This document shows, piece by piece, positions 27,091 through 59,254 of a DNA stretch of 64,000 nucleotides. The position numbers and the translations under genes were made by a program. A model generated the notes under the pieces. The model was not told the DNA's origin. It worked only from the letters and a program-made list of their open reading frames with translations, and searched no databases. Origin of the DNA: Onthophagus taurus (lineage: Eukaryota > Arthropoda > Insecta > Coleoptera > Scarabaeidae); NCBI RefSeq assembly GCF_036711975.1, contig NC_091971.1, positions 10,547,501 to 10,611,500 of the forward strand, read 5' to 3'. The number at the start of each line of letters is the position of its first letter. The first letter of the stretch is position 1.

Positions 27091-30000
27091 TCACATATGT
27101 ATTGTTGCTGCTGTGTATCGAGCTTCTCCACGTCTCCATCTCCACTGACTTGGACGATACTGAAATTAAAATTATAATAACTAAAATAACATAAAAATGA
27201 CAATTTTTACCCTAATCAACATTTGTCCACTCGTCGTATGTGGATTTCTGTAAGCATAAACCATCCAAAGAACGATGATTGTGGAGATACAAACAAAAGC
27301 AACAAATAGTATCGAAATACTACCCATCGAATTATTTTGGGACTTTGCGTTAATTGGTCGTAATCCGAGCATATCATTTAACGCTTCTTGGTGTCCGTTG
27401 TTTATGTTGATTCCGTGGTCATCATCGTCATCGGTTGTATATAATGATTCGCAAGATAATGCAGAAAATATTTGTTTTTTGTCACAACCTTTTTGGAGCC
27501 ATTCGTGGCGGTAACGATCGACACCACTTGAACATCTCGATGTTGCAAGGCACCAAGTACACTAAATACCAAAAAAAATACTACAAAAATATCCACTAGA
27601 TATTAATACATACTTTAAAGTTTGTATCATCATTCGCAAAACAAGATTTACAATCCCTTTTCTGCTGACAGGTTGGAAGTGCAGTAAGATAAATAACAGT
27701 AGAATTCTTTATATCCTCTTTAGCAAAACTAACTTTGTGGTATTCAAAAATAGTTTTTCTATGAACATCTAAAAAAAAATTACACTCCAATATTATAAAA
27801 TTAAATTTGTTGCTTAATTTTTTCTTACAATGTTCGGCATTATCAATAATATAAGCATCCGAAAGCCCAATTGTAACTGGATGATAAACATCTTGAATCG
27901 ATTTAATAATCTCGGGAACGTTTAAATACGAAAAAACGATATCGCCGTTCTTATGCAATGTTGCTTGAAACGTAAATTTATCGTCTTTCGGGTTATCCTG
28001 CAAACGAACGTTTTCCCATTGCACTGTAAAACTCGTGCCGTTATCCAAAATTTTAATATAACTGTCGTTTGAGAGACTCGTGTCGAAATTAGCCATCAGT
28101 GGGGCGATGTATTGAGTAGCCGCTAACCACGAATGAACGTAATCTCCCGTATAAATAAAACCTCCCGTGGCTACGGTTACATTGCGAATCATATGACCGT
28201 AAAAAGGAAAATCAAAGTTTAATTTTACCGTCTAAAAATATTATACAATCAATTTAAATAAGCAAAAAAACTTTGTTAATACACTTACTGCTGCTCTTCG
28301 ATGTGACGTTGATAAAAGACTGTGAATTATCGCTTTATCATTATCAAAATTAACCCAATATTTACCAATATGAGGAAAAGTAGTAAAGGTGCTATTATAA
28401 TAAATATGAGTATCCGATTTATTTACAGAATAATTTCCGTCTTTGACATTATGCTCAAAATATTTCGTTAAATTATCAAAATTTTCGAAATGATCGCAAT
28501 CATCATCGTAATCAGGTAAAGAAAGACTATTTTTGGTCACATTTAAATTCCCCATTACCTTAGTCAGCATGGGTTTTGTGGCGTTCGCCCATAAAGTACC
28601 AGTTCCATTTTCCCCCAAATTCTTTTTCACCGTCAAAGGCGGAGCTTCGGTATTTATCATCGGTATTTGTTTCTTATTGTTTTTCTTTTCTGAAACGTAA
28701 ACCTTCTTCGTAGTGTTATTGTTTGTTGGAATTCCTGGCTGAAGAGTAGTTCCATTATTCACCTCCCTCCTTTGAATATTATGATTAATTTCCGGTTGAT
28801 TAATTAATTGAAAATCTATCAGTTCTTTGTGCTTTGGAATGGAGTTATCGGAGGTATAAAAATAAATGTCTGAAAATACAAAAAAGAAACAAATTTTAAT
28901 TCTTCGAGAAACCGAACTGACCTTGAATAACGAATGTAAATAGTCTAGTTACACTTGTATAGTATCACAAATGTGCGTTTAGCATTATGCAGATTTTAAT
29001 AGACGACGACGCACACAGTTTCATGATCGTATATTACAAATACAGTCTGTTGGACTTTGAATCCGGTCTCTATAAAGCGAAACACACGGCAAAACAATTG
29101 GAACGGATTCAATTACTACCTTTCTTTTTACTTTATTATTATCTGCGCCGTTATGTATATTACTTATCTTGAATTGTATCAATATAGGATTGTTTAGGCT
29201 ACTCAATGTTTTTAATCAGCTATAATAAACGTTGGTTATACAATTTGTATATAAGGTTAAATAATAAGAGGTCAACGACTGAAGTAAATCGTGAATATGA
29301 AATGAATGAATACACTAATTCCTTTGTGATTTATGAACCAACATAGTTTACTTTTATAACAAAATTCTTTGAATTATATTATCAGCAACGCTTTTTATCA
29401 ATGTTTTGCTAAATATTATTTTATTATCACTTCCAGGAAATTCATTTTAATATAAATATATAGAAGCATATAAACAAATTTAACTTAATTTTATCTATTG
29501 AAATAATTTTTTTGGCAAATAAAAGATAAACCATATTAAAATATATTATTGAATCTACCGTTTTCGAGAACTACAGGTATTTATTACCATCTTTAAATTA
29601 CCAATCAAAAACCCTGTTATCTTAAAAGGTGTTGCAATAAAACTTTGGAAGTCAATAAAGATGGTATCTCAAAGCGAGGTGAAATTGATTTACTCTCTAT
29701 GTCTCCGTTGATTTATTGGTCTCTTGGAGAAAGTTAATTTGGCGAAAAGTTTAAACCATACCTTGTTGCGCACTACGGGAGCTATTTCTTCTCTACCAGT
29801 GCGTAGACTAACTTTAGACTACACATTTTTAAAGACGAAGAAGTAAATTTTTCTCGACCCCCTCTAGGCTATGTCTCCCCAGGGAGTCTGAGGAGTTCTA
29901 AGGGATTCCGTGCTACTATTATATTAAATAGGATCATTGTTTCCACCCAGCTTATTATGAAATGAAAATAATAAAATTGCCAACAAAATAAAACACGAAA

Positions 30001-33000
30001 TCCTGAAGACTATATCTGCAGAGAGCATACCATACCTACAGACTACGTAACAATCGACTGTATAATGGAAATTGTAGCTAAAAACTGTATACAATGTAGA
30101 CTACAGATAGCATACTCCCAACTATAGCTACAGACCATAATCGAAAGCTACAAATTATTAAAAAATTGCAAGTCATACACATAAATTGTACAGCGCAGCA
30201 GGAAACTAGAAATTATAGTTGGAAACTGAACATTGTACTTTGCTTCATAAGTTGTGTATCGCAAACTATACTTGTAGGTCGCATTCCCAAGTATTTGTGC
30301 ATAATTTAAAGCATAGCAGCCAATCATAAACTGCGAATTGTAATTATAGCCGACAAACTATACCTGTAGGGTGCATTCTCAAGTATTCTTGCATATTTTA
30401 AAGCATAGCAGCCGACACAGACTACGAATTGTAACTGTATTCGAGACATTATAGCTGCAGCCTGCATTTCCAAGTATTCTTGCACAATTTAATGGATATT
30501 AGCTGATCACACTACGAATTTTAATTATAGGCGGCAAACTATGGCAATAGGCTTCAATCCCAAGTACGAATACTTAATTTAAAGAACAACAGCCAATCAC
30601 AGACTACGAACTGTAACTTTAAGGCGACAAAGTATAGCTGCAGGCTGCACTTAACTAAATAGATTAAAAGGAGCTTATAGAACGACATTTATTGATACAC
30701 AAACCGTTGTTACTGGAAGGTTTCAAACGGGCATGGAAGTGGAAAAAAAACTTGATATGCTATTTCAAAAGTGGAAATGAAAAAAATAATAAAATTGCTG
30801 AGAAGTAAACCGAAACAAATTTGAGACATTACATTGGCATATCACGGTTGTGAAGTTAGCCATAGATTCTAGCCATAGATTTAAAAATCGAAAAATGACC
30901 GATTTTTACAACTCGAAACGCAAATTAAAATTCATATTTGAGTTTAGCACTCTTAGAATAACCCGTATACAAAAATTTACGGGGGGGTGTTTTCATTTAA
31001 GGGAGTAAAAAATCCCAAAGTTGTGAACATCGCGTGCGCGCGTATACTGTTCGACCAAAATCGAAAAATGACTAATTTCTGCAACTCGAAACGCAAATTA
31101 AAATTCATATTTGTGTTTAGCGGTCTTAGAACAACCCGTATACAAAAATTTACGGGGGGGTGTTTTCATTTAAGGGAGAAAAAAATCCCAAAGTTGTGAA
31201 CATTGCGTGCGCGCGTATACTGTTCGACCAAAATCGAAAAATGACTAATTTCTGCAACTCGAAACGCAAATTAAAATTCATATTTGTGTTTAGCGGTCTT
31301 AGAACAACCCGTATACAAAAATTTACGGGGGGGTGTTTTCATTTAAGGGAGAAAAAAAATCCCAAAGTTGTGAACATTGCGTGCGCGCGTATACTGTTCG
31401 ACCAAAATCGAAAAATGACTAATTTCTGCAACTCGAAACGCAAATTAAAATTCATATTTGTGTTTAGCGGTCTTAGAACAACCCGTATACAAAAATTTAC
31501 GGGGGGGTGTTTTCATTTAAGGGAGAAAAAAAATCCCAAAGTTGTGAACATTGCGTGCGCGCGTATACTGTTCGACCAAAATCGAAAAATGACTAATTTC
31601 TGCAACTCGAAACGCAAATTAAAATTCATATTTGTGTTTAACGGTCTTAGAATAACCCGTATACAAAAATTTACGGGGGGGTGTTTTCATTTAAGGGAGT
31701 AAAAAAATCCCAAAGTTGTGAACATTGCGTGCGCGCGTATACTGTTCGACCAAAATCGAAAAATGACTAATTTCTGCAACTCGAAACGCAAATTAAAATT
31801 CATATTTGTGTTTAGCGGTCTTAGAACAACCCGTATACAAAAATTTACGGGGGGGTGTTTTCATTTAAGGGAGAAAAAAAATCCCAAAGTTGTGAACATT
31901 GCGTGCGCGCGTATACTGTTCGACCAAAATCGAAAAATGACTAATTTCTGCAACTCGAAACGCAAATTAAAATTAATATTTGAGTTTAGCGGTCTTAGAG
32001 TAACCCGTATACAAATATTTACGGGGGGGTGTTTTCATCTAAGGGAGTAAAAAAATCACAAAGTTCTGAACATCGCGTGCGCGCTTGGAAATTCAGAGTT
32101 TTTGATTATTAGGTTGAAAATATGTAAGAACGGATGTGAGAGTGTAGGGGCGCAATCGTTGACTAAAAATGTAGGAATCTCATCTGGGCCAATTGTAGCC
32201 TTTGTCTTGAATTTTTTGAAAGATTCAACCATTTCGTCGTAACTGACTTCGGAGATACCAAAGGTGACAGAATTAGTATCATAAACAGCGTGATCGTTAC
32301 CAGTAGGTTACCAAATGATGCAGGACAGTACATAGCCTCAAAATGATCGACAAATAAGTTAACTACTGTTGGCAAATCGGACACACTTAAGAGAGCCTGG
32401 AGATCTTATATTATTTCTGCTTATATTAACAAAACGCCAAACGTTTTTTGGTTCTTTTCTTATGTCCCTCAGAGATTTGACATAAACTTGTGCGATGATA
32501 TCTGCAATGAGTTTTTCTATACAATTTATGGTGGTGTTTTTTTAATCTAAGCATTCTTATTAGGTTAATTGAATGCAATACAGGATATTTCGAGCTTGCA
32601 TGCTTGCCCTCAGATTTAAGTACGTGAGCGTCCAGGTCGTTGTATAATGCTTCATAAAAAACATTACAGTATTGTTCAACCGATGATAACGTAAATAGAT
32701 GAGTCCAGTCGATGTTAAGCAGTACCTCGTACATGTCAGGCAGATAAGATAACATCTCGAGCTATCAAATGTGTAGGCACCGTTACCGAAATAGTAAGTA
32801 GTAATGCCGATTGGTAATTATCTTCTCGTACCAATGTAAAGTCTCACTGTTTAATTTGAAACTCAAGTTTGAGGAAGCAAGTATCAAATCAAGAGTTCTA
32901 TCAATGATATTCATTACATTATTTAATTGCAGAAAGTCATTATTACTGCAATATTAAAATCACCCATGACTATGGTATCCAAAGACATATCCAACATTGA

Positions 33001-36000
33001 TTCAATGTAATCGAAGGTGTAACTATACATACATTCCTCCAGGTGTAGCAGATGGGAAATAGCAGACAACAATGTTAAAGGCCGATTTCGTCTTTTTAAA
33101 GTCAATCCGTACAGCTTTCAAGTCAATTGATTCAATAGGACAGGAGGCAATCATGATATTCGAAGTAGCAACTCCGGAATTAACAGCCAGTAACATCTCT
33201 CCACCCTTATGGAAAGATCGATCACATCTAAAAACGTCATACCTGTCTGGAAAGATCTCGTAGTCTAGGACGCTCTTCTTGACCCAAGTTTCACTGAGAG
33301 CAATAATATCAAAGTCTGATGCATCGACCAAAGTAAAAAATTTGTTTTGATAGTATATGTTGTACTCTTTCCGTTGGGAAGTTACTAGTTTTTCTTAACA
33401 ATTCTCGGACATCCATTAATGAACTGTATTCTTAAATCATTTTCACCGTATTCAAAATCCGCATCTAACAAAGGAAATGAACAATCAAAGAAAATTTTGC
33501 GTAAACTTGTGGATGGGGCTCATTGGAAATAATTTAATTGGTCCTTATTTTTTGCCGGATGGTTTAACTAGCGCAGCATACAATGAATTTTTACATAACA
33601 ATTTAATAGGCCTGCTTGACCATGTACCTTTAGAAAACAGATGTAATGTGGCTTTCCAGATGAATGCCTTGCACACTATTCCCAAAATGTTGAAAATTCA
33701 TTAAATGAAATGTTTCCTAATGGTTGGATTGGGAGAGGAGATCTAATTCCATAGCCTGCAAGGAGTCTTGATTTGACGCCCCTTGATTTTTATGTGTGGG
33801 GCCACATGAAAGAACATACACCTAACATACACCCTATGTTTACACAAGTCAACTCTAAGGATGAATTAATAGAAAAAATCAAAAACGAAGCATATGTTTT
33901 AAAAACGTTAATTACAATTACCTACCCCCCCATAAATTTTTGTATAGGGGTTATTCTAAGACCGCTAAACTCAAATATGAATTTTAATTTGCGTTTCGAG
34001 TTGCAGAAATTGGTCATTTTTCGATTTTTGTCGAACAGTACACGCGCGCAAGCGTTGTTCATAACTTTGGGATTTTTTTACGCCCTTAAATGAAAACACC
34101 CCCCCGTAAATTTTTCTGTAGGGGTCGTTTTAAGAGTGCTAAACTCGAATATGAATTTTAATTTGCGTTTCGAGTTGCAGAAATTGGTCATTTTTCAATT
34201 TTTGTCGAACAGTACACGCGCGCACGCGTTGTTCATAACTTTGGGATTTTTTTACGCCCTTAAATGAAAACACCCCCCCGTAAATTTTTCTGTAGGGGTT
34301 GTTTTAAGAGTGCTAAACTCGAATATGAATTTTAATTTGCGTTTCGAGTTGCAGAAATTGGTCATTTTTCGATTTTTGTCGAACAGTACACGCGCGCACG
34401 CGTTGTTCATAACTTTGGGATTTTTTTACGCCCTTAAATGAAAACACCCCCCCGTAAATTTTTCTGTAGGGGTTGTTCTAAGAGTGCTAAACTGGAATAT
34501 GAATTTTAATTTGCGTTTCGAGTTGCAGAAATTGGTCATTTTTCGATTTTTGTCGAACAGTACACGCGCGCACGCGTTGTTCATAACTTTGGGATTTTTT
34601 TACGCCCTTAAATGAAAACACCCCCCCGTAAATTTTTCTGTAGGGGTTGTTCTAAGAGTGCTAAACTCGAATATGAATTTTAATTTGCGTTTCGAGTTGC
34701 AGAAATTGGTCATTTTTCGATTTTTGTCGAACAGTACACGCGCGCACGCGTTGTTCATAACTTTGGGATTTTTTTACGCCCTTAAATGAAAACACCCCCC
34801 CGTAAATTTTTCTGTAGGGGTTGTTTTAAGAGTGCTAAACTCGAATATGAATTTTAATTTGCGTTTCGAGTTGCAGAAATTGGTCATTTTTCGATTTTTG
34901 TCGAACAGTACACGCGCGCACGCGTTGTTCATAACTTTGGGATTTTTTTACGCCCTTAAATGAAAACACCCCCCCGTAAATTTTTCTGTAGGGGTTGTTC
35001 TAAGAGTGCTAAACTCGAATATGAATTTTAATTTGCGTTTCGAGTTGCAGAAATTGGTCATTTTTCGATTTTTGTCGAACAGTACACGCGCGCACGCGTT
35101 GTTCATAACTTTGGGATTTTTTTACGCCCTTAAATGAAAACACCCCCCCGTAAATTTTCCTATAGGGGTTGTTCTAAGAGTGCTAAACTCGAATATGAAT
35201 TTTAATTTGCGTTTGGAGTTGCAGAAATCGACTTTAAAATCTATGGCTAGAATCTATGGCTAACTTCACAACCGTTGGCATATCAGGTATTCAGAAACAT
35301 TTTAGTTTCTTCCCTATGTTAGAAATAAGGCTCTACATTCTAAAGAATAAAATTTTTTTTTCGAGACTGACATCTGCTGACTGTCATAGTACCGATGGTA
35401 GATGAGTGGACACCAAATCGATTGCAAAGATGAAGAACCACTGATGAATAGGAAACCACAAGGCTTTTAGTTCTAAGTTTACTTGAGGGAATCGAAGATA
35501 GTACACCAACTGTGCTTCTAAGAAGTGATCGAGCTACGAAACCTGGATAACTGCACAACACTTATAGCAATAAAAATCTTTCATGTTAAATCTTTTTCGA
35601 ATGATTCTAGTTCTAGGTCTTATGTTAGTTCTGGTTTTACACTAGCACTATCACAGACCTAGAACTAGAAACATTCATTAATTCTAGTTTTAGTTCAATA
35701 AAAATATGCAACATAGTGATATGTTAACTAATGCTACCTACCACTATCAGTAGAACTAACACTAGACCGAGAACTATAAACTTTCGGATTTAGCAGCACG
35801 TCTCTCAAGACGGTTAAACCCGAACGATTCTAGTTCTAGGTCTTGTGTTAATTCTAGTGACAGTGTAAAACTAGAACTAACACTAGACCTAGAACTAGAA
35901 CGTTTAGGGTTACGGCTAAGGCACGGCTAAACCCAAATGATTCTAGTTCTAGGTCTAGTGTTAGCTCTAATTTGAGTTGTTATTAGTGCTAGTGTTATTC

Positions 36001-38669: not shown

Positions 38670-39003
38670 GGAAACTTTAAGAAAATATCCCGTATTACCA
38701 TTTTTAGATAGAATGTGTGATAGAATACTGATTATAAATTACCTGGAACTGACATAATAATTGAAAAGGGTACTCCAGTTTATATTCCGATGTTTGGATT
38801 ACATTATGATGAGAAATATTGGAAGAATCCTCAAAAATATGATCCAGAAAGGTTTAGTGATGAAGAAATTAATAAAAGGCATCAATATGCGTATATTCCT
38901 TTTGGATCAGGACCTCATAATTGTATTGGTAAGAAGAGAAAAATAAATGATTTGATTTTTCGTATTATTTAATTTTTATTTTAGGTGAACGTTTCGGATT
39001 GAA
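38670..39003 (+). pseudogene. P450 fragment: inverted duplicate of exon 2 end, intron and exon 3 start
   Basis: Starting at GGAAACTTTAAG (38670) and ending at GTTTCGGATTGA (39003), this is a near-identical plus-strand copy of the 41255-42876 P450, including the complete last intron and the first 20-odd bases of exon 3. Differences are few: a short insertion in TGTGTGATAGAATACTG that shifts frame, and point changes such as AAT for GAT in KNPQ versus KDPQ. It keeps the heme-loop motif FGSGPHNCIG. Retained intron sequence shows DNA-level duplication, not retroposition. It joins a satellite sequence abruptly at its 3' end. Confidence 0.9.
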
Positions 39004-39342
39004 TTTTCATACTCATATTCCAAGAAATAGATTTTAAAAACCGACGCTTACGTCATTAAATTCTTAGAATAATTTTAATTAGTACGCATTTTTATCAGTG
39101 AAAACCACATGGGTTTTCATTTAATTTTTGATTAATACAGAGTTAAAAAAATTTTACGTTAAATTAAATGTTAAAGATTAATTCTTGAATTAATTTCGTA
39201 TTTATAAGAGGTTTAATTAATGAGATTAGTGAGTTTAAAACTTATTAATGTAAAAATTGTTGTTATCAAGCTTATATGTTGATAGAATTGCAATCAAAGC
39301 TCCAAGATAAAGTGAGAAAGATGGAAAATAAGTAGTGATGGA
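39004..39342. other. Junction and spacer before the dimeric satellite
   Basis: 39004-39040 is a 35-bp scrap of the dimeric satellite (TTTTCATACTCATATTCC). The rest is unique AT-rich sequence ending at TAGTGATGGAGCGGATACTG, a border shared with the array at 58180. Confidence 0.5.
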
Positions 39343-40590
39343 GCGGATACTGATTTTTCAATTTAATCGGCGAAAATTGCAAAATTCGAAAAAATTGTCG
39401 ATTATTTCAAAAATGTATTTCTCAAGAACTAAACGTGATTTTTCAAAACGGCTTTTTGCATTAAAAATAACATACTTTAATTAATAATTGGTGATATTTC
39501 CACAAGGATCCTTCAAGAAATGAATTTTATAGCGAATTTTGAAAGTTATCGATGAAAATTGCAAAATCGAAAATTTTATTGAAACTTCAAATACTGTTTT
39601 CTCAAAAACTAAAAGTTATTTTTCAAAACGAGTTTGTTCATTGGAAAGAGGACACTTTTATTAACACTGGGAAATCTTCATACTCATATTCCAAGAACTG
39701 GATTTTATACGAATTTTGAACTTAATCGGCGAAAATTGCAAAATTCGAAAAGATTGTCGATCATTTCAAAAATTTATTTCTCAAGAACTAAACGTGATTT
39801 TTCAAAACGGCTTTTTGCATTGAAAATAACATACTTTAATTAATAATTGGTGATATTTCCACAAGGATCCTTCAAGAAATAAATTTTATAGCGAATTTTG
39901 AAAGTTATCGATGAAACTTGCAATATCGAAAATTTTATCAAAACTTCAAATACTGTTTTCTCAAAAACTAAAAGTTAATTTTCAAAACGAGTTGGTTCAT
40001 TGGAAAGAGGACACTTTTATTAACACTTTGGAAAATTTTCATACTCATATTCCAAGAAATCGATTTTATATGAATTTTTAAAACTTTATCGGCGAAAATT
40101 ACAAAATTCGAAAAAATTGTCGATTATTTCAAAAATTTATTTCTCAAAAACTAAAAGCGATTTTTCAAAACGGCTTGTTGCATTAAAAAGAGGATACTTT
40201 AATTAATAATTGGTGGTATTTCCACAAGGATCTTTCAAGAAATTAATTTTATAGCGAATTTTGAAAAGTTATCGATGAAAATTGCAACATCGAAAATTTT
40301 ATCAAAACTTCAAATATTGTTTTCTCAAAAACTAAAAGCTATTGTTTAAAATGGGTTGGTTCATTGAAAAGAAGACACTTTTGTTAACACTTTGGGAAAT
40401 GTTCATACTTATATTCCAAGTACTGGATTTTATACGAATTTTTAAACTTAATCGGCGAAAATTGAAAAATTCGAGTAAATAGTCGATCATTTCAAAAATT
40501 TATTTCTCAAGCACTGAAAGTGATTTTTCAAATCGCCTTTTTGCGTTAAAAACAGGATACTTTGATTAATAATTGAAGGTGATACAGCTC
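39343..40590 (+). repeat. Dimeric satellite array, about 360-bp repeat, left of P450 gene
   Basis: About 3.4 copies. CACAAGGATC recurs at 39501, 39860 and 40223 (periods 359 and 363). Each 360-bp unit is two diverged half-units of about 180 bp: one with CACAAGGATCCTTCAAGAAA, the other with TTTTCATACTCATATTCC. Both halves share a CTCAARAACTAAAAGTKATT core. The same satellite occurs inverted at 44535-45238 and direct at 58185-59248. Confidence 0.9.
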
Positions 40591-41160
40591 CAGTTCTGTA
40601 CAGTTCTGTTAGTAATGAATCTGGTGATGAACTACAAGCGAAGAGAAGAAAACTAGATGAAACTGCAACAAGAGATTTTATATATCGTATTGGGATTGTT
40701 ACAATGAGGTTGCTAATGACAAACCTGATATAAATAAGGTTGTATTAAATCAAAAAGGTCCTATTGGAGTTGAGCTTGATTATTATCTGCAGTGTCCGAC
40801 ACCTAAAAGAGATACTAATTCCTGTGAATGGTTACTACTACTGTTATTAAAAAAACTATTACTTTTACCTCACTAATGTTGCAGGATACATATACAAATC
40901 TTGCTTCAAACAAGATCTATATTAAAGGAGATAAACAAATTTCTTGGAAAATCCATCTTAAGACTTGAAATAAAATTCTTTCAACATTGCTTGTGTTCGA
41001 CATATACAATTTATTATTGCAACGAAATGATTTTAAAATCGATTCGAGTGAATTCATAACTGAAGTTTCTTTGAAACTAGGTGTAATGTGTTTTTGCCAA
41101 TGTTAGTACAAAGTTATTTGGGATAAAACGACCTTAACTTTACCAAAAATTAAATTTAAA
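40591..41160 (+). repeat. Unique module attached to the dimeric satellite (left copy)
   Basis: From 40591 to about 40830 this matches, inverted, 44535-44270: CAGTTCTGTTAGTAATGAAT, GAAGAGAAGAAAACTAGATG, GATTGTTACAATGAGGTTGC and CACCTAAAAGAGATACTA. One frame reads an acidic then basic peptide with KRRKLDETA, which looks like a nuclear-localisation-like coding remnant. 40840-41160 is not shared. Probably part of a transposable element of which the satellite is a component. Confidence 0.7.
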
Positions 41161-41254
41161 ATCTAAACTACAATTTTTAATAAATTTTATTTTAATAAAT
41201 CACCCCAATATTGGATTATTTAAAATACACACATTCATCGTTAAATTATTAACG

Positions 41255-42876
41255 TTATGCAGCAAAAGATGCACGACGATTACTATCAATAAATTTCATT
41301 GGTAATCCAATTGTTGAGGCCAAAACAAAACTTCTCGCTGAATATTTTAATGGTATCGGTGTATCCGCATTCTTTTCAACTTCAAATCGATTTAAAATGT
41401 TAACCAAACCCAATTTAGTACTGATCAATCCGAAACGTTCACCTAAAATAAAAATTAAATAATACGAAAAATCAAATCATTTATTTTTCTCTTCTTACCA
41501 ATACAATTATGAGGTCCTGATCCAAAAGGAATATACGCATATTGATGCCTTTTATTAATTTCTTCATCACTAAACCTTTCTGGATCATATTTTTGAGGAT
41601 CCTTCCAATATTTCTCATCGTAATGTAATCCAAACATCGGAATATAAACTGGAGTACCCTTTTCAATTATTATGTCAGTTCCAGGTAATTTATAATCAGC
41701 ATTACACATTCTATCTAAGAATGGTAATACGGGATATTTTCTTAAAGTTTCCGAAACAACTTTATCGAGGTATTTCATGCTTTGGATAGCTTCGTAAGTT
41801 ATTTCGTCGTGTTTTTTAAGAACTGATTTAATTTCAGATCTTAGTTTAGTTTGAATTGATTTGTTTAAACACAATTCATAAAGTGTGAAAGCCATCGTTG
41901 AGCTTGTTGTTTCAAATCCGGCTAAGAAAAATTGAATTGCTTGTGCAACAGCAATATCTCCGTCTAAAAAGAAATTGTTTATAATTAAATAAAATAAAAT
42001 TAGTGTGAAATCGTTTTATCTTTTACCAAATTTAACGCCGTCGATATCACCTTGTTGTTTTAATTTTAAAATAATATCGATAACATCGTTTCGTTTTTGT
42101 TGAGTTTTTTCACGAAGATTAATAGTTGACCAAAATATTTGTTTTAAATACTCACTAACATTAGGTGGGATAAATTTAATTTTTAATAAATATACTAATT
42201 CTTGTAAAAAGAAATAAGAAATTCCACGAACTCCGTTTGTGAAGTTTGGTTCAAACATATCTTTACCAACTTGCCGAAATTTCGCGTCCTCTTTTTGAAA
42301 GCATCTTCCTTGAACACCAAAAGCACACGAAGTAATTACATCTGTGGCATATTTAGCACAAATTTCTTTAGACTCAACGGTTGGTAAATTAACTCTTTTT
42401 TCGATGTATTGGACCATTTCATCTCCGGCTTCTGCCATTAATGGAATCATACTTTTAATTTTCCCCGATGTAAAAGCAGGTGTCATCATTTTTCGTATAA
42501 CTTTCCATTCGGGATTACGAAGCACAAAGAGAATATTTGATGAAATAGAGTCGGCTTTTTCATCAGCCGCTACAGTTCGGTCGCTAAAATATTGAAAATC
42601 TTTTACCAAAACCATTTTTATTAGTTCAGGATCCTTAATGACCACGTGTGGTTTATTAAAAACCCAAATTCCAAAAACTTTATCGGGGATTTGTTTGTAC
42701 ATATCTTGTAACATTTCACCTATTGATTTTTTAAAAGTTAAGCACTCGTAAAAATTTCCAAAAATTGGCGTTGGTTTTAAAAATGGAACTTTTCGTTTTT
42801 TCCAATAACCAAAATTTTTCGTGCTGAGTTTGTAGAGGAGAAAAACGATGATAGCAAGAAAAATTGCGATCTCCAT
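41255..42876 (-). CDS. Cytochrome P450, CYP6-like (CYP3 clan)
   Basis: Three exons: 42876-42027, 41963-41499, 41442-41255; 500 aa, the usual length of microsomal insect P450s. An N-terminal membrane anchor (IAIFLAIIVFLLYKLS) targets the ER. Later motifs: WKVIRKMMTPAF (C-helix W-x-x-x-R), AGFETTSST at 298-306 (I-helix oxygen-activation motif, usual AGxxT), ETLRKYP with ExxR at 355-358 (K-helix), PERF (411-414), and FGSGPHNCIG with heme-ligand Cys437. All are intact, so a catalytically competent monooxygenase is expected. CYP6-type enzymes often act on plant toxins and insecticides; the substrate is unknown. The gene lies between inverted copies of a satellite-plus-module repeat, and a duplicate of its exon 2/3 junction lies outside on the left. 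Confidence 0.93.
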
Positions 42877-44269
42877 CTTTAACGATTTCTTTCGCTTACT
42901 ATGAACAAGATTAGATTGTTTGAGAAGCTTTTATTGAAAGGATTTCATGCGGAAAATTAGTTTGGCGTGTCAAAAAATTTCTATAATTATTTCGCAGATC
43001 TATAATTGTATATTCGTGTTAATATTTCCTTCACGTGCATTGTTTGGTAATTATAGACAACTTGTCATAATAATTGCTAAAAATCGTTTAAAAAATACTT
43101 TTATTTCTAATTTGCAAAAATAGGAAACTTTCTAACTTCTTTCGTATTCAAGTCTAAATCTATCATCATAATCATAATACATAACCAATTTTATGGCGAA
43201 CACTTGTTATTTATAGTTTAATCTGAGTTCAAAATCAATTCGAATGCAAGATTTTCTTCGGAAAAGCGAATTGTTTTGCAGCTTAACCAAGGTCAGTGTG
43301 CATTTACTGGGGTGATGAAAACGTTGTTCTCGCTTCGATATCATCGTAAAAGGCCAGTCAAAATATTATGATTACAAGATGATTGGAAGGTCAAATTTTA
43401 CAAGTTAAATTTTAGAAACAGAAGATTTTGTGTATGAAACTAAAGCGTTTGAAATGTTTATAAAAAGATTACAAAAGCTTACACACAAGATGTAATGGGA
43501 TTACTGTAACGGGTCAGTTCAAATTGAATGGCAGTTGCATCCAAACATTTAATGTGACTCGATGAGGTGTTGAAATGGTGTTTTTAGGCAAAAGAAATGA
43601 TAAATAAAGATAGGGAAATATTAGATTTAGTGTTTTCTTGGTTGAAGGTCACAATTTTTGGCGATGCAAAATAAAATTAGCTGAGGACAAAGTGTGTTGG
43701 ACAAAACATGACAATTGGTGACCAGAATTCATGAGCACAATGTCATCGCAACATAGGAAACAGTTTGGTTTATTATTGCAGTCTATTGTTATGTATCCCG
43801 ATTGCCCGCAGTTAAAACACAGGCTTGGTTACATTACCTAGAATGATCTTACTTGGACGTGTTCACAGTAACCCATTTTCAGCACGGTCGCTAACGCTTT
43901 CTTCGATATCCAAAAGCTTTTATCTGATAACTACCTTGAATTCGTCAGCGATAATGACTTCAAAAACATAGCAGGGCTTCAATTGATTAAATATTGAATG
44001 AGATCTAGTACCTAATATTCAAACAAGTCTGGTACAAACATTATTGTCTGTATCTAGAACAAATATGGTGATATCTTCTGAAATATACATTGCAGGTTAC
44101 CTATTTATTGTTGAGAATTCTCCGTTTCCTCATCACAACTCTTAAAATCATGGCTTACAGTTGGTAAAATTTTGCTGATTGCCAGAATAAAATCTTGATT
44201 GTTTTCACATAGTTACGGCTTTGGCCGGATTTTAAAAACCTATTACTTAGTACTCCACCATTCACAGGA
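42877..44269. other. Upstream flank of the P450 gene
   Basis: No coding motif found. On the minus strand, a CAATAAAAGC sequence lies about 60 bp upstream of the ATG and could serve as a weak TATA-like element. 43250-44250 is less AT-rich and may be transposon-derived. Confidence 0.4.
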
Positions 44270-44534
44270 GCTAGTATCTCTTTTAGGTGTTGGACACTGT
44301 AGTCGTAATTAGTAATTATGACTAATTTCTGCACTCATAATAATCAAGTTCAACCACAATATGACTTTTTCATTGAATACGACTTCATTTATATCAGGTT
44401 TGTCATTTGCAACCTCATTGTAACAATCCTAATATGATATATAAAATCTCTTATTGCAGTTTCGTCTAGTTTTCTTTTCTTTGCTTGTAATTCATCATCA
44501 CATTCATTACTAACAGAACTGTTGCTGTTATCAC
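44270..44534 (-). repeat. Unique module attached to the dimeric satellite (right copy, inverted)
   Basis: Reverse complement of the 40591-40830 module with moderate divergence. It has a short insertion near 44300-44330 relative to the left copy. One minus-strand frame reads NECDDELQAKKRKLDETA and RDFIYHIRIVTMR. It abuts the satellite array directly, as on the left. Confidence 0.7.
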
Positions 44535-45240
44535 TTTCGATTATTAATTAAAGTATCCTCTTTTTAATGCAAAAGGTCGTTTTGAAAAATAACTTTTAGT
44601 TTTTGAGAAAACAATATTTGAAGTTTTGATAAAATTTTCGATGTTGCAAGTTTCAACGATAACTTTCAAAATTCGCTATAAAATTCATTTCTTGAAGGAT
44701 CTTTGTGGAAATATCACCAATTATTAATTAAAGTGTCCTCTTTCCAATGAACCAACCCGTTTTGAAAAATCACTTTTAGTTCTTGAGAAATAAATTTTTG
44801 AAATGATCGACAATTTTTTCGAATTTTGCATATTTCGCAGATTAAGTTTTAATAATTCGTATAAAATCGATTTCTTGGAATATGAGTATCAAAATTTGCC
44901 AAAATGTTAATAAAAGTGTCCTCTTTCCAATGAACAAACACGTTTTAAAAAATAACTTTTAGTTTTTGAGAAAACAATATTTGAAGTTTTGATAAAATTT
45001 TCGATGTTGCAATTTTCATTGATAACTTTCAAAATTCGTTATAAAATTAATTTCTTGAAAGATCCTTGTGGAAATATCACCAATTATTAATTAAAGTGTC
45101 CTCTTTCTAATGCAAAAAGCCGTTTTGAAAAATCACTTTTAGTTGTTGAGAAATAAATTTTTGAAATATCGACAATTTTTTCGAATTTTGCAATTTTCGC
45201 CGATTAAGTTTTAAAAATTCGTATAAAATCCAGTATTTAG
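44535..45240 (-). repeat. Dimeric satellite array, right of P450 gene, inverted
   Basis: About two 360-bp units of the 39343-40590 satellite in reverse orientation; GATCCTTGTGG-type blocks occur at about 44698 and 45060. It ends at AAATCCAGTATTTAGG at 45240. Confidence 0.9.
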
Positions 45241-46447
45241 GATAGAACACAATGAAAACATGCATTCTAACTAAATCAATAATTGGTTTCTTTTAGGGTC
45301 AAGTACCCACATAACAAACATTATCAGGAAGATTTACATAACAACGCTATTTACAAGTTGCCATTTCTAGATTATGTAAGACTTCATATATACCACATTC
45401 GTCAACATATACAGAATGTTATTCAATAATTGTCATGCGTTTGAATTTGAATTAAGTATTAGAAAAATAAAAAAACTCTGAATTTTCCTACAACATGATA
45501 GCATCCCTAACTTTTATTTATTTACTTTAACAACATTTTACCGCCCTAAATTTTACATCTTACAGATTCCTACAACATTTTTACCAGTAATCACGCAACG
45601 ACCAGTGTCGTTAGTTCCACCATTCGTTGGTATGTGGCACTGTTGTTTTTAATTTTACATATTTTACATTACTTAATTAATACTTTAAATGGATTAAATT
45701 TTCTTCTAATGTGCATTCCTCATTCTTGCAAAATCAAATTTGATTTCTTAGAAGTCTCACTAACAATTTCAAATATGTAAAATATTAGATTTGTTTTGGC
45801 ATTTTTAGACTATACATTATTATGTTTAGATAAATGCATATTTCTCAGAATTAGAAGCAATGTTTAAAACAGAATTAATGATAATTTTACAGAGTGAACT
45901 TCCCTTGGTTTGCAAATCTCAGTCAATATAGCCCACCTAATTAGATATCAGGCATATTTGAGCTAACATTGGATGCTTTAAGAACAATATAGAATTATAG
46001 AAGAATTCAACCATCGTGTGCACCACATCTTCCCGGACCAAGTGGCTATGATTTAGGTATAATTAGGATTATATTTGCCAAGAACAAGATCTATAGCATT
46101 CGGAAATGTGTTGACATTGAGGACATTGTGGACACAATGTGTGACATTGGAATTGTGCCATTCCAAGAGTAATAGAACATCGAATAGTTAGAATTCCATA
46201 TGACAGCCATAACGGTCGTTATTTACGGAAATAATCGCATCATTGAATCATTAAAAAATTCTAGATAAATGGAAAATTTATCTGATTTGACCAGGAAGAT
46301 AAAAATATGTTCATAAATTCCATGATTTAATGAAATGAAAAGAAATGTTTTTTGTGTTAACTTCTTTTTTAAAAACAATTATGTTTATTTAAAGACTTTG
46401 TTAACTGGGAAACGTTTGTTTGACGTATTGTCAAATAAAAAATAAAA
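45241..46447. other. Intergenic before the SLC6-like gene
   Basis: AT-rich, no coding motif. A local run of GACATTGAGGACATTGTGGA words lies near 46115-46160. The promoter of the SLC6-like gene must be at the right end. Confidence 0.4.
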
Positions 46448-48936: not shown

Positions 48937-51556
48937 TTAGAAATATCCAACATGTTTTGTATCATAACTAAACATTTTTTCCCAAAATAAGTAATCAGTT
49001 TCGTTAATTTTTTCTTTTATTGTAAGTTTTGTGTCTATAGATAAAGCTTTGTATTGAGTTTCCTTTTTATATTGGGGCCATATTATATTATCCAATAAGT
49101 TAATTTCTTTTGGAGTAGGATTTCTATAAAATTACATAACATTTAAAATAGGATGAAATAAAATGATGGAGATTATCAGGACGAACCTAATGAAACAAAT
49201 GATGATAGCAATTCGATGATAATAAAAGAGGGCGAGGTTGAAAAGTGTTTAAAACAAATGAAAAATATGTAACATTACAACCGACTTTGTCACTATAATT
49301 TGCAGATGACCAGGTAGTGTTGCCGCAGGACGCATATGATTTAGAATTTATGATAAAGATGCAACCTCGAACTACGGTAAATCCTACTATTTTCCAGTGA
49401 AACCTAACATTTACCAACTCTGAATGGTAAAAGTTCGAAATATTCTGTGATCATCGGTCATTTCGAACTTTTACCACCATTCACTCGGTAAATCTTAGGT
49501 TTTACCGTAGAGACACGGTAAATGTCGAAAAATAGACAGGTGTTGTTCCGTGTATCTTGTATCAAAAATAACTATATTGTTTTATTCTCAAAACCAACAT
49601 TTACAACTTGTTATTGGTAAAACTTAGCATGTACCAAACTAAAAACCAGAAAAATTATCTCTTGTTTAAAAAATTCTTAGATTTACCAACTCATGTTGGT
49701 AAATCTTAAGATTTACTAGTTAAACCTAAGATTTACCGTAGTTCGGGCTTTTACACTAACATCCTTTCTGTTAGTAATACTTACAAAGTAGTAGCAAAAT
49801 TTGTCCACATAGTAACTAATTGTTCTCGAATTTTAGCATCACCTTCAGGGATATTTTTAGGTTCATTACTATTACGATAGAGATAATTCAGTTCTTCCGC
49901 ATGTCCTACACCTCTTCTATTTGGGTTAAGCGGATCTCCTAAATATCCGATATAAGAAAATTTATAGAAATAAGTTGGTGTATATCTAGATATTAGATGA
50001 GCTTTCTTTAGAACGGGTCTGACTATAACATTATCACTGGTATACTAAAAAATAAAATTACTTATGTAATATGTCAATATACATCAATATTATAAATAAT
50101 TACACGAAGAGTTGAATAATTAAAATCATTTCCTTTATAATAATACTGTTTAATTGTTTCGCCTAATTTTAATTCGGTTGCATTATCTTTCGGATATAAC
50201 GTATTAGGAATTAAAACGGTGCTATCTGTTTTTACTTTTGATGCAATTTGATCAACAAAATCCATTAATGTTAGAGCTTCTAATGAAGTAAATCCAAGCA
50301 TTATTGGTACACGATTATATTCGTCTTTTTCTAATTGTTGTAGAGGTTTACGAGTAATTATTGCATCAGGATGATCAGACTCTATAATTGTTGTAAAAAC
50401 CAAACTTCCTTTCGCTGTAGGAACCTTAAAGATAAAATATTTTTTATTGTTATTTAAAGTTGTTTGTATTAATTACTTTATTTCCTATATCTAATGCTTT
50501 TTTGTAGAGCTCTTTAGAATCAATTTTTTGAAGTTTCTCAATTAATTCTTTAGTATTATTTGTAATTATCCCAAATTCTTCTCCTATTTTTAACGCTCTC
50601 TTCCTAGCATTTACTTGTTGGAGGAAGCTTGCAATATCAGATGCACTTTGTTGAATAGCGGCTCTATAATCGCCTTTTGTCGTTGGAGTGTTAACTAAAA
50701 TTCCTATAGAGGCCGATCCGGCGCTGTGTCCAAATATAGTGATTCGTTCTGGATCACCACCGAAAGCTTTGGCGTTTTGTTTAATCCATTTTAATCCTAA
50801 ACGTTGATCTTTATTTCCGTTATTTCCCGGACAATTCAAATCTTCAGTACTTAAGAAACCTAAATTTTTTTTTTAATTGTTGTCGAGATTTGGGTTATTA
50901 AATTTACCATAAACACTTAATCTATATTGGACAAGTGCTAAAACTACGGATTTTTCCATAAAAATATCTGGGCCGTATTCCTTGAAATTAGGAGATCCTT
51001 CTTTAAAACCACCACCATGGACATAATACATAACCGGGAGAAGTTCATTATTTTTTCTGCGCTGTTTAATTTTTTTTATTATTTATTTAAAAAAATATTT
51101 AATTAGGTACCTTTGGGGTATAAACTCGCATATATAAACAATCTTCACTCCCAATTAAAGTATCATTTTTTCCCATTTGTAGACATGCATCACCTTCTTT
51201 TGTGGAATCGTAAATTCCTTTCCAATTATCAATAAATTGTGGAGGCTACAAAATTTTATTACAGATTTATGCCATAAAAATAATTTTTACCTACTTTAAA
51301 CCGAAGATTTCCAATGGGAGCTTTAGCGAATGGCACTTTTAAAAAAGCTAAATATTCGATGCGTTGGTTGTAAGTCCTCATTAATTTGCCATTTAATAAC
51401 CCACTCGAAATTTTAACAACATTCCTTTTTTCATTAAAAGTCTAAAATAAAGACACAATTAATTCATTTATGTTTAAAATTAAATTAAATCCGTACATAA
51501 CGTGATGTAGAAACTATTATAAAAGCACTAAAAATAACACAATACATTTTATACAT
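48937..51556 (-). CDS. Carboxylesterase (type B, COesterase family), secreted type
   Basis: Eight exons: 51556-51497, 51441-51295, 51245-51111, 51061-50908, 50859-50477, 50424-50083, 50044-49785, 49123-48937; 555 aa, near the family norm. A signal peptide occupies residues 1-17 (MYKMYCVIFSAFIIVS). Catalytic features are intact: oxyanion-hole HGGG at 129-132, nucleophile elbow GHSAG with Ser211, acid Glu342 (FTSLEAL) and His455 (VGHAEEL). Other family blocks: SEDCLYMRVYTP, YRLSVYGF and DQRLGLKWIKQNA. It hydrolyses carboxyl esters; whether the role is detoxification, lipid or odorant turnover cannot be told. It ends 25 bp from the end of the convergent SLC6-like gene. Intron 7 contains a MITE-like element. 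An acceptor 6 bp upstream in exon 4 was chosen because the alternative gives a stop. Confidence 0.92.
49366..49751. mobile_element. MITE-like element in esterase intron 7
   Basis: About 385 bp. The ends CGAACTACGGTAAATC and, inverted, GATTTACCGTAGTTCG match over 16 bp. Internally, TTTACC/GGTAAA words recur in both orientations (for example AACTTTTACCACCATTC and GTTGGTAAATCTTAAGATTT), making the element strongly self-complementary. No coding capacity; target duplication not clear. Confidence 0.65.
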
Positions 51557-51769
51557 TTTCAACACGATCTTTACCGGCGATGTGGCACATTTACGAGAAT
51601 TTCAGTATTTAAAGTCAACGGTGAAAATTTCTTATCGGGTTTTTTTTCCAATTAACATATCATGACTAAAAAAATGTTCCAGGTTTTCATGGAATGTAAT
51701 GACATTCTATTGAGTATCAACTTTTTAATTTTATATTAAAACAATCCACAATACATTTTATATTTTCGT

Positions 51770-53975
51770 ATTTTTCTCGATATCTGTGTATCTGAGCGAA
51801 AAATGTAATTAAGCAATATTGTTAAGCATACAATTTGCTACAACTTTTGTTTTAAAAGTTTTTTTGTAACATACTCAGATTCCCCAGTGTTATCATCAAC
51901 AACTTGAAACAACAACTAATTTGTCAAATTTTAACGTTTTCGTATTTTCCTCGCTATCTATGCATCTGAGAGAAAAAGTACAACAGAACAATATTGTTAA
52001 GCATAAAATTTGCAACAACTTTTGTTCTAAAAGTCATTTTGTAACGTACTCATATTCTCCATTGTTACGATTAGCAACTTGAAACAACAACTAATTCGTC
52101 AAATCTTAACATTTTCGTATTTTCCTCGCTATCTATGCATCTGAGAGAAAAAGTACAATAGAACAATAGTGTTAAGCATCAAATTTGTAACAACTTTTGT
52201 TCTAAAAGTTTTTTTGTAACATACTCATATTCTCTATTGTTACCATCAGCAACTTGAAACAACAACTAATTTGTCAAATTTTAACATTTTTGTATTTTCT
52301 TCGCTATCTATGCATCTGAGAGAAAAAGTACAACAGAACAATATTGTTAAGCATACAATTTGTAACAACTTTTGTTCTAAAAGTCTTTTTGTAACGTACT
52401 CATATTCTCCATTGTTACCATCAGCAACTTGAAACTACAACTAATTCGTCAAATCTTAACATTTTCGTATTTTCCTCGCTATCTATGCATCTGAGAAAAA
52501 AAGTACAACAGAACAATATTGTTAAGCATAAAATTTGTAACAACTTTTGTTCTAAAAGTTTTTTTGTAACATACTCATATTCTCCATTGTTACCATCAGC
52601 AACTTGAAACAACAACTAATTTGTCAAATCTTAACATTTTCGTATTTTCCTCGCTATCTATGCATCTGAGAGAAAAAGTACAACAGAACAATTTTGTTAA
52701 GCATAAAATTTGTAACAACTTTTGTTCTAAAAGTTTTTTTGTAACATACTCATATTCTCCATTGTTACCATCAGCAACTTGAAACAACAACTAATTCGTC
52801 AAATCTTAACATTTTCGTATTTTCCTCGCTATCTATGCATCTGAGAAAAAAAGTACAACAGAACAATACTGTTAAGCATAAAATTTGTAACAACTTTTGT
52901 TCTAAAAGTTTTTTGTAACATACTTATATTCCCCAGTGTTACCATCAGAAACTTGAAACAACAACTAATTCGTCAAATCTTAACATTTTCGTATTTTCCT
53001 CGCTATCTATGCATCTGAGAAAAAAAGTACAACAGAACAATATTGTTAAGCATAAAATTTGTAACAACTTTTGTTCTAAAAGTTTTTTTGTAACATACTC
53101 ATATTCTCTATTGTTACCATCAGCAACTTAAACAACAACTAATTCGTCAAATCTTAACATTTTCGTATTGTCCTCGCTATCTATGCATCTGAGAGAAAAA
53201 GTACAACAGAACAATACTGTTAAGCATAAAATTTGTAACAACTTTTGTTCTAAAAGCTTTTTGTAAAATACTTATATTCCCCAGTGTTACCATCAGAAAC
53301 TTGAAACAACAACTAATTCGTCACATCTTAACATTTTCGTATTTTCCTCGCTATCTATGCATCTGAGAAAAAAAGTACAACAGAACAATATTGTTAAGCA
53401 TAAAATTTGTAACAACTTTTGTTCTAAAAGTTTTTTTGTAACATACTCATATTCTCCATTGTTACCATCAGCAACTTGAAACAACAACTAATTTGTCAAA
53501 TCTTAACATTTTCGTATTTTCCTCGCTATCTATGCATCTGAGAGAAAAAGTACAACAGAACAATTTTGTTAAGCATAAAATTTGTAACAACTTTTGTTCT
53601 AAAAGTTTTTTTGTAACATACTCATATTCTCCATTGTTACCATCAGCAACTTGAAACAACAACTAATTCGTCAAATCTTAACATTTTCGTATTTTCCTCG
53701 CTATCTATGCATCTGAGAAAAAAAGTACAACAGAACAATACTGTTAAGCATAAAATTTGTAACAACTTTTGTTCTAAAAGTTTTTTGTAACATACTTATA
53801 TTCCCCAGTGTTACCATCAGAAACTTGAAACAACAACTAATTCGTCAAATCTTAACATTTTCGTATTTTCCTCGCTATCTATGCATCTGAGAGAAAAAGT
53901 ATAACAGAACAATATTGTTAAGCATAAAATTTGTAACAACGTTTGTTCAAAAAGTTTTTTTGACAGTTAATTCGT
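51770..53975 (-). repeat. 175-bp satellite array, about 12.5 copies, with 872-bp higher-order repeat
   Basis: CTATCTATGCATCTGAGA recurs every 174-175 bp (for example 51954, 52129, 52304, 52478). The segment at about 52421-53000 is copied almost exactly at 53293-53870, a shift of 872 bp or five monomers, including variant marks such as TTATATTCCCCAGTGTTACC. The first copy (51770-51900) and the last (53880-53975) are diverged, as expected at array edges. It begins about 210 bp upstream of the esterase start codon. Short repeated minus-strand ORFs (64 codons) are just readings through monomers. Confidence 0.95.
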
Positions 53976-56900
53976 CAAGCTTATTTTACACTCCTATTCT
54001 AGACTATATTTGGATGCAATTTATATAAGAAAATGACACGAGATAAAAAATGATTTAGTTAAACGTACCAGTAAAAAAGTTTCTTTGAAATGGCAATGAA
54101 TAATAAACACCCCAAAAATACCAAGGAAAATAATAATTAATGTTTGCTATTTTCACACCAGGAAATACAAACTGATACAGAAATAATATGGTAAATAAAA
54201 CAGGAAGATCCTAGTTAATGTTTCGATAACCTTTGCTCTATAAATTAAAATAACAAATAATTTTGCTATTTTTTTTTCAATTTATATACACAGTAATATT
54301 GAATAACAACACTGATATTTTTCATGTTTCCTCTTAAACAACAATATCAGACGGTGTTTATCCTTCAAGAAGTATAAATTAACTTCACTTTATTTTTATT
54401 TGTTTTTACAAGAATTTTATTACGTGCTTGTTATTGTTGTATTTTAATTAGAGTTTACTACGACCTTGTTAATAAACTACGCATCATTAGTATTCTCAAA
54501 AAAAACTCCGCCTCGATTATACTCCAACCAACTAAAACATCTAATTATTAAAACAATACTAAAGATTCCTAGTTTATTCGTATATTTCTAATTTTCCGCT
54601 TCTAATACACGTGTCATGATGAACGGAATAAATTCCAAAAATCGATTTGTAAAGTTAAGGACCCATCGACCACGTGCGGTCGTATTAAAAATATTATGCC
54701 CTTTCGATCACAATTATGGTTAACGAGTGTAGCGAGAACGAAACCTCGAGCGAAAGCTCGCGTGACGTTTAATTGAAACATCGATATTTGTCTTTCGCTT
54801 ATTTTCACTTTATATGCATCGAAAGCCAACCAATAAAATGAAGCTTTAAAATTTAAGCATCGTAATGTGTACTTTCTGCGAATTAGATTTTCGGCTACGC
54901 ATCAAGGTTGACTTGAAGATGCGAATAATACGTTAGAAAAACAAACAGATACATAAAATTCAATTAACAGGTTTACATTTCGATCTTTTACGAATCTGGT
55001 GTGTAGATCCGGTATAAATAACCACGGGTTATTATTAAAAATTTAAGTGGGTTTATGGTTCATATAACCTGCGGGTGAATTTTTTACGACTTGTGGTCTT
55101 ATAACTTTCACCACCCTTAAATTTATTTCTTACATCGTATGATAGCCCTGGTTGTTAAATTTGTATTATTTCATTTTTGTGTTTTTTTTTTGAAATGAGT
55201 GTATGCGAAAAATTTCAAATAAACATTGCTGGAGGAAATTCCAACCCAATTCAGTTTTGTACTCAATTTAAACAATTTAACATTCGGGATTGTTAATGTG
55301 TATTGTAAGTTAATAGTCACTGCAATAAAAGAGTGATAAAAACTTTAACAACGCAATTTTTTTTTATTATGGCTAAACAATTTGTAGAGAAACGAAGGTC
55401 AAAGCGCGCAAAACATTGTTGGTTAAACGATCGACGAAATGTAGATTGCTAAAGCTAATGCATATTTTGAGGCATTTTTTGGGAATGGTTCAAGTCATAT
55501 AAATGTTATTTAGAGAGAAAGAAAAAAAAGAAATTTTTCGTTAAGTATATCCTATATTTAGATTTTGTTGTACCGTAATGTGAAAACGTATTACCTCCTA
55601 CTATTTTAAATCCTTTCATGAACTCTGTAGTTGTTTGATTACAGATGTAATAACTTTGTAGCCAATGAATTGAGTCGATCTGTTTACTTATGGCACTGTA
55701 AAATCTTTTCCGGAAATCTATATCATGTTCTTTGCATACACATTTTGTAATAAGGTCACTTTGTCGTATTAAGTTTTCAAAGATTGCAGTTCTCTATTGA
55801 GGTTTTATTTTTTTAACATTGCATTAGTATACCACATGGCGAACGCAGATTCGTCATAAGCATTATTCTTTTCTAGATTTGTTGCATATCATTTTCTAAG
55901 GGAAACGGCGATGGGATGACAAGACTGAGAAGAGAGGATAATAAAGGGGAAAAGTGGTAGTAATAGAAAACCAAAAAATGTGGCACACAGGCAGGTCATT
56001 AATGAAGTTTGAAGACTTGGAGGAAGATGTAAAGAAGAAGACTGTGTTATAGAGGTTGAGGGCTGCAAAACAGTAATAGTGGAGATGCATCAATTAAGAA
56101 AGAAAATGTAAATAGAGAGGAGATGATAACGAAATGAGGAAATGGGCGAGTTGATACAGGTGATTAATGGAATGACAACATAGAAATGGATAAAATTGGA
56201 AACGAATTGCAGCCTAGGGAATGAAAAGAACGGAAAAAGTATGTCAAAAGTATGACAGGAAGCCCAAGATGAATATTAAACATGATATTCATTTCATATA
56301 AAAATATGCACGAGAATAAGACTAAAGATGAAGGAATGTGAAGTGCCGAAGATTTAGCATTTCTGGAAAATTTGTTTATAACATTGTAGGAAATTTTTTT
56401 AGATATTAAATCTTGGGTAACTTATTTTTATTAAAAAAAAACTGTGTAGCAAAAATTTTGCCAAAAACCATAAAAACAATATTAGTAAAAAATGAAATAT
56501 CAAAACACCAAAACCAAATGTTTATTTATATTATCAAGATTTTTGGGTAAGATTCAAGTCTGCGTGACTTGAATCTATTATTTAGAGAAAAAGGTCAAAG
56601 TAAAGTAAATGTTTTTAAAACTTTTTGCAAAAAATGATTCATTAATGCTATACCATAGGAACTTTTGATTAACCATTATAAAAATTTAATACCACCATAA
56701 AATCGTATTTTTTATTCTAACAATGATTAAATACTTCAAAAACAAATTACAACGATTATAATCTAAATTAAATTTTATATTTAGTTATTAAGAAAACGTG
56801 ATAAAGCGGTTTATGCGATTATAAAACGTTGAAACAATTTTTAACATTGACTCAAACGTAAAGACCCACTACCAGAAGCTTGACCGCATAAATTTTTACG
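53976..56900. other. Gene-poor region, no gene recognised
   Basis: AT-rich. 54600-54960 is CpG- and GC-richer than its surroundings, with CTCGAGCGAAAGCTCG-like symmetry at about 54750, and might be a promoter or 5'-end region of an unseen gene; no exon was confirmed. 55890-56340 is purine-rich on the plus strand and could be a decayed retrotransposon ORF1 or linker. Confidence 0.35.
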
Positions 56901-56919
56901 GCACTTTTTATTTGAATTT

Positions 56920-57975: not shown

Positions 57976-58029
57976 TTCGTATCACTTGGAATAATTCCTC
58001 TGGTAATGTTGGCATAGCTGTCAAGAGAG

Positions 58030-59248: not shown

Positions 59249-59254
59249 GAACTT

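Follow-up and report, generated by a model that had tools for sequence, protein, structure and literature searches.

FB-A, a dispersed family of foldback-type elements with satellite-like arms in the beetle Onthophagus taurus

In a 64,000-bp stretch of Onthophagus taurus DNA (contig NC_091971.1, positions 10,547,501 to 10,611,500; C6:10547501-10611500 in our numbering, and the window hereafter), two tandem arrays face each other across a core and are bordered by short direct repeats. A first-pass annotation had read this structure, which we call FB-A, as a complete Foldback-like transposable element and as an example of a mobilised satellite array. The locus raises two questions: does FB-A belong to a transposon family, and where do its arrays come from? 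We examined both in one genome assembly of 290.8 Mb and 33 contigs.

The architecture that had been described for the window copy was confirmed. Tandem Repeats Finder placed the left array at 30884-32084 (period 174, 6.9 copies, 97% matches) and the right array at 33924-35228 (period 174, 7.5 copies, 98% matches), and the arms were inverted relative to each other, with 89-90% complementarity in the longest pairs. The inverted identity of the outer ends was exactly 39 bp, and the 9-bp direct repeat TGGCATATC was present on either side of the element. The complete layout is given in Table 1.

In the genome search that the annotation had proposed, the tips were found elsewhere. The FB-A tip ACGGTTGTGAAGTTAGCC had 60 exact matches and 4 matches with one mismatch, and 58 of these 64 ends paired in inverted orientation (19 further matches with two mismatches were left out of the counts). 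A looser search with a 14-mer, one mismatch being allowed, gave at least 152 matches compared to at least 132 for the reversed control; the 63 exact matches listed in that search consisted of the 60 that belonged to known copies and 3 others. We fetched 36 FB-A places and based the copy counts on the 29 that were two-ended, including the window copy. Six one-ended places (L018, L029, L031, L034, L037, and L043) and a relic without tips (L044) were left out.

The flanks of the two-ended copies carried the 9-bp duplications predicted for a Foldback-type family. Specifically, the 9-bp flanks were identical in 23 of the 29 copies, differed by one mismatch in 4, and differed by five mismatches in 2 (L033 and L040), and among the lengths of 6 to 12 bp that were tried, the exact match appeared at length 9 only. 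When, as a control, the left flank of one copy was paired with the right flank of another, one mismatch or fewer was found in 2 of 810 pairings, so the duplication was more than a chance resemblance. Because L041 and L042 are one insertion in two rows, the number of independent FB-A insertions is lower by one. The target sites had an A+T fraction of 0.71, compared to 0.68 in the flanks, and an A at position 2 in 17 of 26 cases.

We also searched the window and the loci that had been fetched for sequence matching the 29 joined flanks, and we found related empty sites in the same assembly for three copies other than that in the window (L026, L036, and L033), in line with the single-target empty sites that had been predicted. 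L026 lies within a 180/360-bp satellite; four compared places in this satellite were unfilled and had one TTTTATTAA each, where the filled copy has TCTTATTAA; the unfilled relative of L036 carries one GAGGAAGGT. These data bear on the idea that a local rearrangement generated an inverted satellite next to a chance flanking repeat, with no transposon involved. Inverted satellite arrays do occur nearby (39353-45244 of the window) without an obvious flanking duplication, but the genome-wide copies, which are dispersed and have the same tips, differing target duplications, and related empty sites, already refute this idea, and we give it practically no weight. The dispersed two-tipped copies with 9-bp duplications supported a Foldback-type family, and FB-A has the structure of foldback elements, with long inverted repeats of tandem units around a core and target duplications of about 9 bp.

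Some FB-A copies appear to be young, since their cores were identical or nearly so. The core had 20 nearly full-length genome matches (window copy included), with identities of 93-100%; in 16 of these, the identity was at least 97%. Among the 14 of 29 copies for which full-length cores were aligned, L012 and L015 differed by 0.0%, five copies were within 0.2% of each other, and L032, L040, and L041 were 3.4-4.2% away. Element length ranged from 2.1 to 9.2 kb, and inserts of more than 1 kb were present in 7 of 29 copies. One insert was an element of a second family, FB-B (described below), one (in L039) had a Tc5-type transposase according to Pfam, and the rest looked by eye like retrotransposons or other transposons.

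To describe the arms, we clustered 285 monomers from the 29 copies. In the display of the clusters, one letter stands for all types past the 51st of 71, and the arms of L016 and L019 appear empty, as no unit fell under the anchor mismatch limit. A consensus split of the monomers into left-arm and right-arm types was rejected in favor of clustering because both arms gave the same line. Read from outer to inner, the 5'-side arm followed the order B A(n) E in 9 of the 29 copies, and the 3'-side arm followed the order B A(n) C in 13. Where the pattern was clearest, the outermost and innermost monomers were fixed and n ranged from 0 to 16; arm sizes ran from one or two monomers up to eighteen. Monomers differed on average by 2.2% within an arm, by 4.4% when the two arms of an element were compared, and by 4.8% when different elements were compared. 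The right arm of the window copy seems to have been homogenised separately because its type H monomers were at most 93% identical to the listed matches outside the window copy (40 of 74 candidate places scored).

Evidence for arm change after insertion came from L041 and L042 (C13), which represent a single insertion present twice through an inverted duplication. A total of 1987 bp of flank and element were 99.8% identical, whereas the remainder (one arm together with some 0.5 kb of the core next to it) was out of register, with best pieces of 93.2% identity over 944 columns and 96.2% over 886 columns. This mismatch indicates a change that followed insertion, and we infer that it occurred by unequal exchange or conversion. 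L033 and L034 (C8; L034 is without its left end) are also an insertion doubled by a recent duplication, and both pairs could be used as clocks of arm change.

Two sister families have related tips and different cores, a feature for which the annotation had suggested looking. FB-B was found within the FB-A copy L030 (1109-3864) and has the tip ACTGGTGTGAAGTTATCC, a 172-bp unit, and the duplication GCTTCGTTT; the FB-A core serves as its empty site, with 98.6% identity over 74 bp. FB-B tips had 296 end matches genome-wide (control, 0), and the FB-B copies L055 and L056 had arms of 3.9/3.8 and 16.8/6.8 units, respectively, with exact 9-bp duplications. The long arm of L056 has a monomer pattern that recurs about every five units. 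FB-C was represented by 69 end matches with TGTGAAGTTAMCCATA in a search built to exclude FB-A and FB-B (control, 0), and we paired these ends into 19 inverted pairs. Its tips are ACCAGTGTGAAGTTACCC and ACCCGTGTGAAGTTACCC (L059-L065), its repeat is about 154-155 bp, with 2.2 tandem copies in the one arm stretch that was read, and its 9-bp duplications were exact in 3 of 3 copies tested, which brings the count for FB-B and FB-C to 6 of 6. Inverted arms of tandem repeats are thus also present in FB-B and were seen for one arm in FB-C.

The tips of FB-A, FB-B, and FB-C agreed pairwise at 29-31 of 40 bases in register, and none of 100000 shuffles was as good. A total of 334 ends in the genome matched TGTGAAGTTANCCATA exactly (control, 0). 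The FB-A and FB-B monomers had short words only in common (best E value, 0.049), and when the FB-C stretch was compared to FB-B, the tip alone matched at E < 1e-5. Because the tips are homologous while the compared monomers are not, the same or closely related transposases may serve all three families.

FB-A has discrete tips, 9-bp duplications, dispersed and near-identical copies, related empty sites, and arms that vary between fixed end monomers. We consider it very probable that FB-A is a non-autonomous foldback-type DNA transposon that is moved in trans by a tip-recognising transposase with 9-bp staggered cuts. Such a transposase, supplied in trans, would recognise the terminal 40 bp or so, and the element would be joined to 9-bp staggered cuts in the target, presumably in a cut-and-paste step. 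The arms would lengthen or shorten by unequal exchange, conversion, or slippage, in some cases after insertion.

Several results weigh against this model. Two of the 29 FB-A copies were without a direct duplication; we read the odd flanks of L033, from its unfilled relative, as a duplication with one mismatch to which 10 bp of filler were added, and no explanation was found for L040. The simple B A(n) E or B A(n) C pattern was missing, with mixed or other types in its place, in 20 of the 5' arms and 16 of the 3' arms (29 arms of each kind). When the monomers were searched for internal tip copies, the best match was 12 of 18 in FB-A, which was reached by 6.2% of shuffles, and 11 of 18 in FB-B, which was reached by 37%. 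None of the 16 genome matches to the MULE domain (PF10551) lay inside the 90 two-ended intervals that we compiled (29 of FB-A, 42 of FB-B from the first 100 of 296 ends, and 19 of FB-C), and the MULE-type transposase copy with the same ends that the annotation had suggested looking for was absent from these 90 intervals. Similarly, 0 of 150 listed matches to DUF7869 (PF25273; 150 of 535 candidates scored) were in the intervals, in a comparison of low power in which 0.225 was expected by chance.

Three candidates were dropped in the course of this work. Repeated transposase-binding sites in the monomers were unsupported, as there was no significant internal tip copy in FB-A or FB-B. An open reading frame with a SWIM zinc finger (PF04434, E value of 1.9e-05) beside the broken FB-A copy L037 was rejected as the FB-A transposase because comparison with three related places (L052, L053, and L054) showed that it belongs to a MULE family that is distinct, has tips of its own, and adjoins L037. 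DUF7869, a domain of transposon-like proteins that also occurs near L037, had no support as the FB transposase because no listed match was in an FB interval. DUF7869 proteins are very abundant in the genome (at least 150 matches and 535 candidate places). The separate MULE family (L052, L053, L054, and positions 3607-3849 of L037) also has a short tandem array of roughly three 56-bp units close to its 3' end. A decayed MULE-domain stretch (L057, C2:26342950-26343550) lies some 4.7 kb inward of a lone FB-C end (L058, C2:26347900-26348040).

What kind of enzyme might move these elements? Target-site duplications (TSDs) are given as 8-11 bp for MULE elements and 9 bp for Rehavkus in the excerpted text of PMC6446971, and the 9-bp duplications of FB-A, FB-B, and FB-C fall within the MULE range. 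On the 9-bp duplication alone, an enzyme of the Mutator/Rehavkus class would probably be the likeliest source of FB transposition. That the element is Rehavkus specifically, which is Mutator-related and has a PHD-finger transposase, rather than Mutator proper, is a possibility toward which we lean less than halfway. Rehavkus combines 9-bp TSDs with minisatellites (PMC6446971), and FB-A likewise has a 9-bp duplication and satellite-like terminal repeats. In Tribolium castaneum, the DNA transposon Rehavkus-1_TC has the 164-bp satellite TCsat23 in short inverted terminal arrays, mostly of five and eight monomers, according to the excerpted text of PMC10218199. By description, this beetle element appears to be the closest architectural match to FB-A, and we do not claim membership; Rehavkus-1_TC is 9.5 kb, compared to 2.1-9.2 kb for FB-A, and Rehavkus differs in that it carries the PHD-finger transposase (PMC6446971). 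A transposase from another superfamily seems decidedly improbable. The foldback form does arise in different superfamilies, and the transposase of Galileo is P-related (PMC3688188 and PMC3169594, as excerpted), but the 9-bp duplication in 23 of 29 FB-A copies and in all six FB-B and FB-C copies tested is that of MULE and Rehavkus elements.

The terminal inverted repeats (TIRs) of the Drosophila Foldback element FB4 contain tandem repeats. We likened FB4 to FB-A by description: FB4 has long TIRs and 9-10-bp TSDs and is non-autonomous, with no transposase known in the excerpted text of PMC8277862. Tetris of Drosophila virilis is also a foldback element, with tandem repeats of about 220 bp in its TIRs, 8-10-bp TSDs, and no transposase found, as far as the PMC4079207 excerpts go. 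Tetris and DAIBAM, of the same species, share tip ends, which is comparable to the related tips of the FB families, and the Tetris repeat has 37 bp in common with the outer TIR domain (PMC4079207). Tetris differs from FB-A in two respects: three structurally complete copies are described in the same excerpts, compared to 29 two-ended FB-A copies, and its repeats also occur in kb-sized satellite arrays, none of which were seen for FB-A among the listed matches. Tm1 of root-knot nematodes is a Mutator/Foldback family whose composite TIRs contain tandem units in variable number and whose TSDs are mostly 9 bp long, but its units are about 14 bp and a Phantom-like transposase-encoding element is known (PMC3169594, in part). 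The TCAST transposon-like elements of Tribolium castaneum likewise have a satellite inside the inverted repeats of a beetle element; they differ in their 3-bp ACT duplication and mariner-type candidate transposase (PMC3411249, in part). Thus, tandem-arm foldbacks with 8-10-bp duplications are already known (FB4, Tetris/DAIBAM, Tm1, and Rehavkus-1_TC), several of them without a known transposase, although that of Tm1 is known. FB-A, FB-B, and FB-C were named in no title or abstract that we found, which does not prove their absence from print.

The second question concerned the origin of the arrays. The annotation had proposed that a satellite array was mobilised, and one explanation is that a pre-existing genomic satellite was captured and spread by the transposon. 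The monomer size and the homogeneity within arms (2.2% difference) are satellite-like, and other inverted satellites are present in the window. However, the listed monomer matches (40 of 74-76 candidate places scored) appeared by eye to belong to copies of FB-A or to relics, and no long array stood free among them. Over 104 bp, the FB-C monomer has 68% similarity to subterminal DNA of FB-C itself. This likeness points to array birth inside the element. The proposal of a mobilised array was therefore not borne out, and we regard capture as unlikely. We also consider a broader scheme, possible but less likely than not, in which the terminal 35-40 bp or so are a portable tip module and one unseen transposase lineage has repeatedly carried unrelated arrays (174, 172, and about 155 bp). 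The tips would then generate new satellites, with arms that are born from subterminal DNA, homogenised within the arm, and exchanged between copies after insertion.

The value of the FB elements lies in their many young copies, their measurable arm turnover, and the existence of three families in which homologous tips carry unrelated monomers. Because the copy series offers identical cores, varied arms, empty sites, and three families on one tip type, the origin and change of satellite arrays inside transposons become measurable within one genome. For comparable elements, the excerpted sources describe few complete copies (Tetris) or no known transposase (FB4).

Table 1. Layout of the FB-A copy in the window
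Feature	Position in window	Strand	Remark
Whole FB-A copy	30844-35275		Between two copies of TGGCATATC
Target-site duplication, left copy, 9 bp	30835..30843	.	TGGCATATC
Left tip, 39 bp	30844..30882	+	Equals the inverted right tip
Left arm, 7 tandem monomers of 173-174 bp	30883..32084	+	Types B A5 E, outer to inner
Core, 1.8 kb, common to other FB-A copies	32085..33923	.	Core matches elsewhere in genome
Frame resembling a non-long-terminal-repeat (non-LTR) reverse transcriptase piece, running from arm into core	32056..32307	-	By eye; no Pfam support
Frame resembling a non-LTR endonuclease piece	33026..33394	-	By eye; Pfam Exo_endo_phos, E value 0.21, below cut-off
Two frames (33423-33701, 33755-33904) resembling mariner-type transposase pieces	33423..33904	+	By eye; no Pfam support
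Right arm, 8 tandem monomers of 174 bp	33924..35236	-	Types o H6 C, outer to inner
Right tip, 39 bp	35237..35275	-	Equals the inverted left tip
Target-site duplication, right copy, 9 bp	35276..35284	.	TGGCATATC

Judged by eye, the minus strand of the window-copy core holds what look like non-LTR retrotransposon pieces, and its plus strand holds what look like pieces of a mariner-type transposase. We treat this reading as a lead because Pfam gave just the E value of 0.21 for the endonuclease frame and nothing for the rest. The element had been placed in intron 1 of a putative PLXDC-like gene; of the three frames at 27184-28948 on the minus strand, one had a nidogen-like match below the cut-off (E value of 0.00097) and two had no match, and exon 1 was not located.

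Other repeats and genes were noticed in the window. For a 175-bp array at 51762-53962 (12.6 units, 94%), no inverted partner of at least 40 bp was found at 50500-60500. At 39353-45244, inverted arrays of a 180/360-bp satellite flank cytochrome P450 frames, and no flanking duplication was noticed; the frame at 42019-42930 on the minus strand matched the Onthophagus taurus protein 'cytochrome P450 6k1-like' with 100% identity across 93% of the frame. P450 exon sequence forms a 279-bp inverted repeat with 99% identity at 38724-39002 and 41425-41703. At 38980-39040, the last codons of a P450 resemble the 180/360-bp satellite unit (35 bp, 94%, compared to the L026 flank), as if the gene end and the satellite share sequence.

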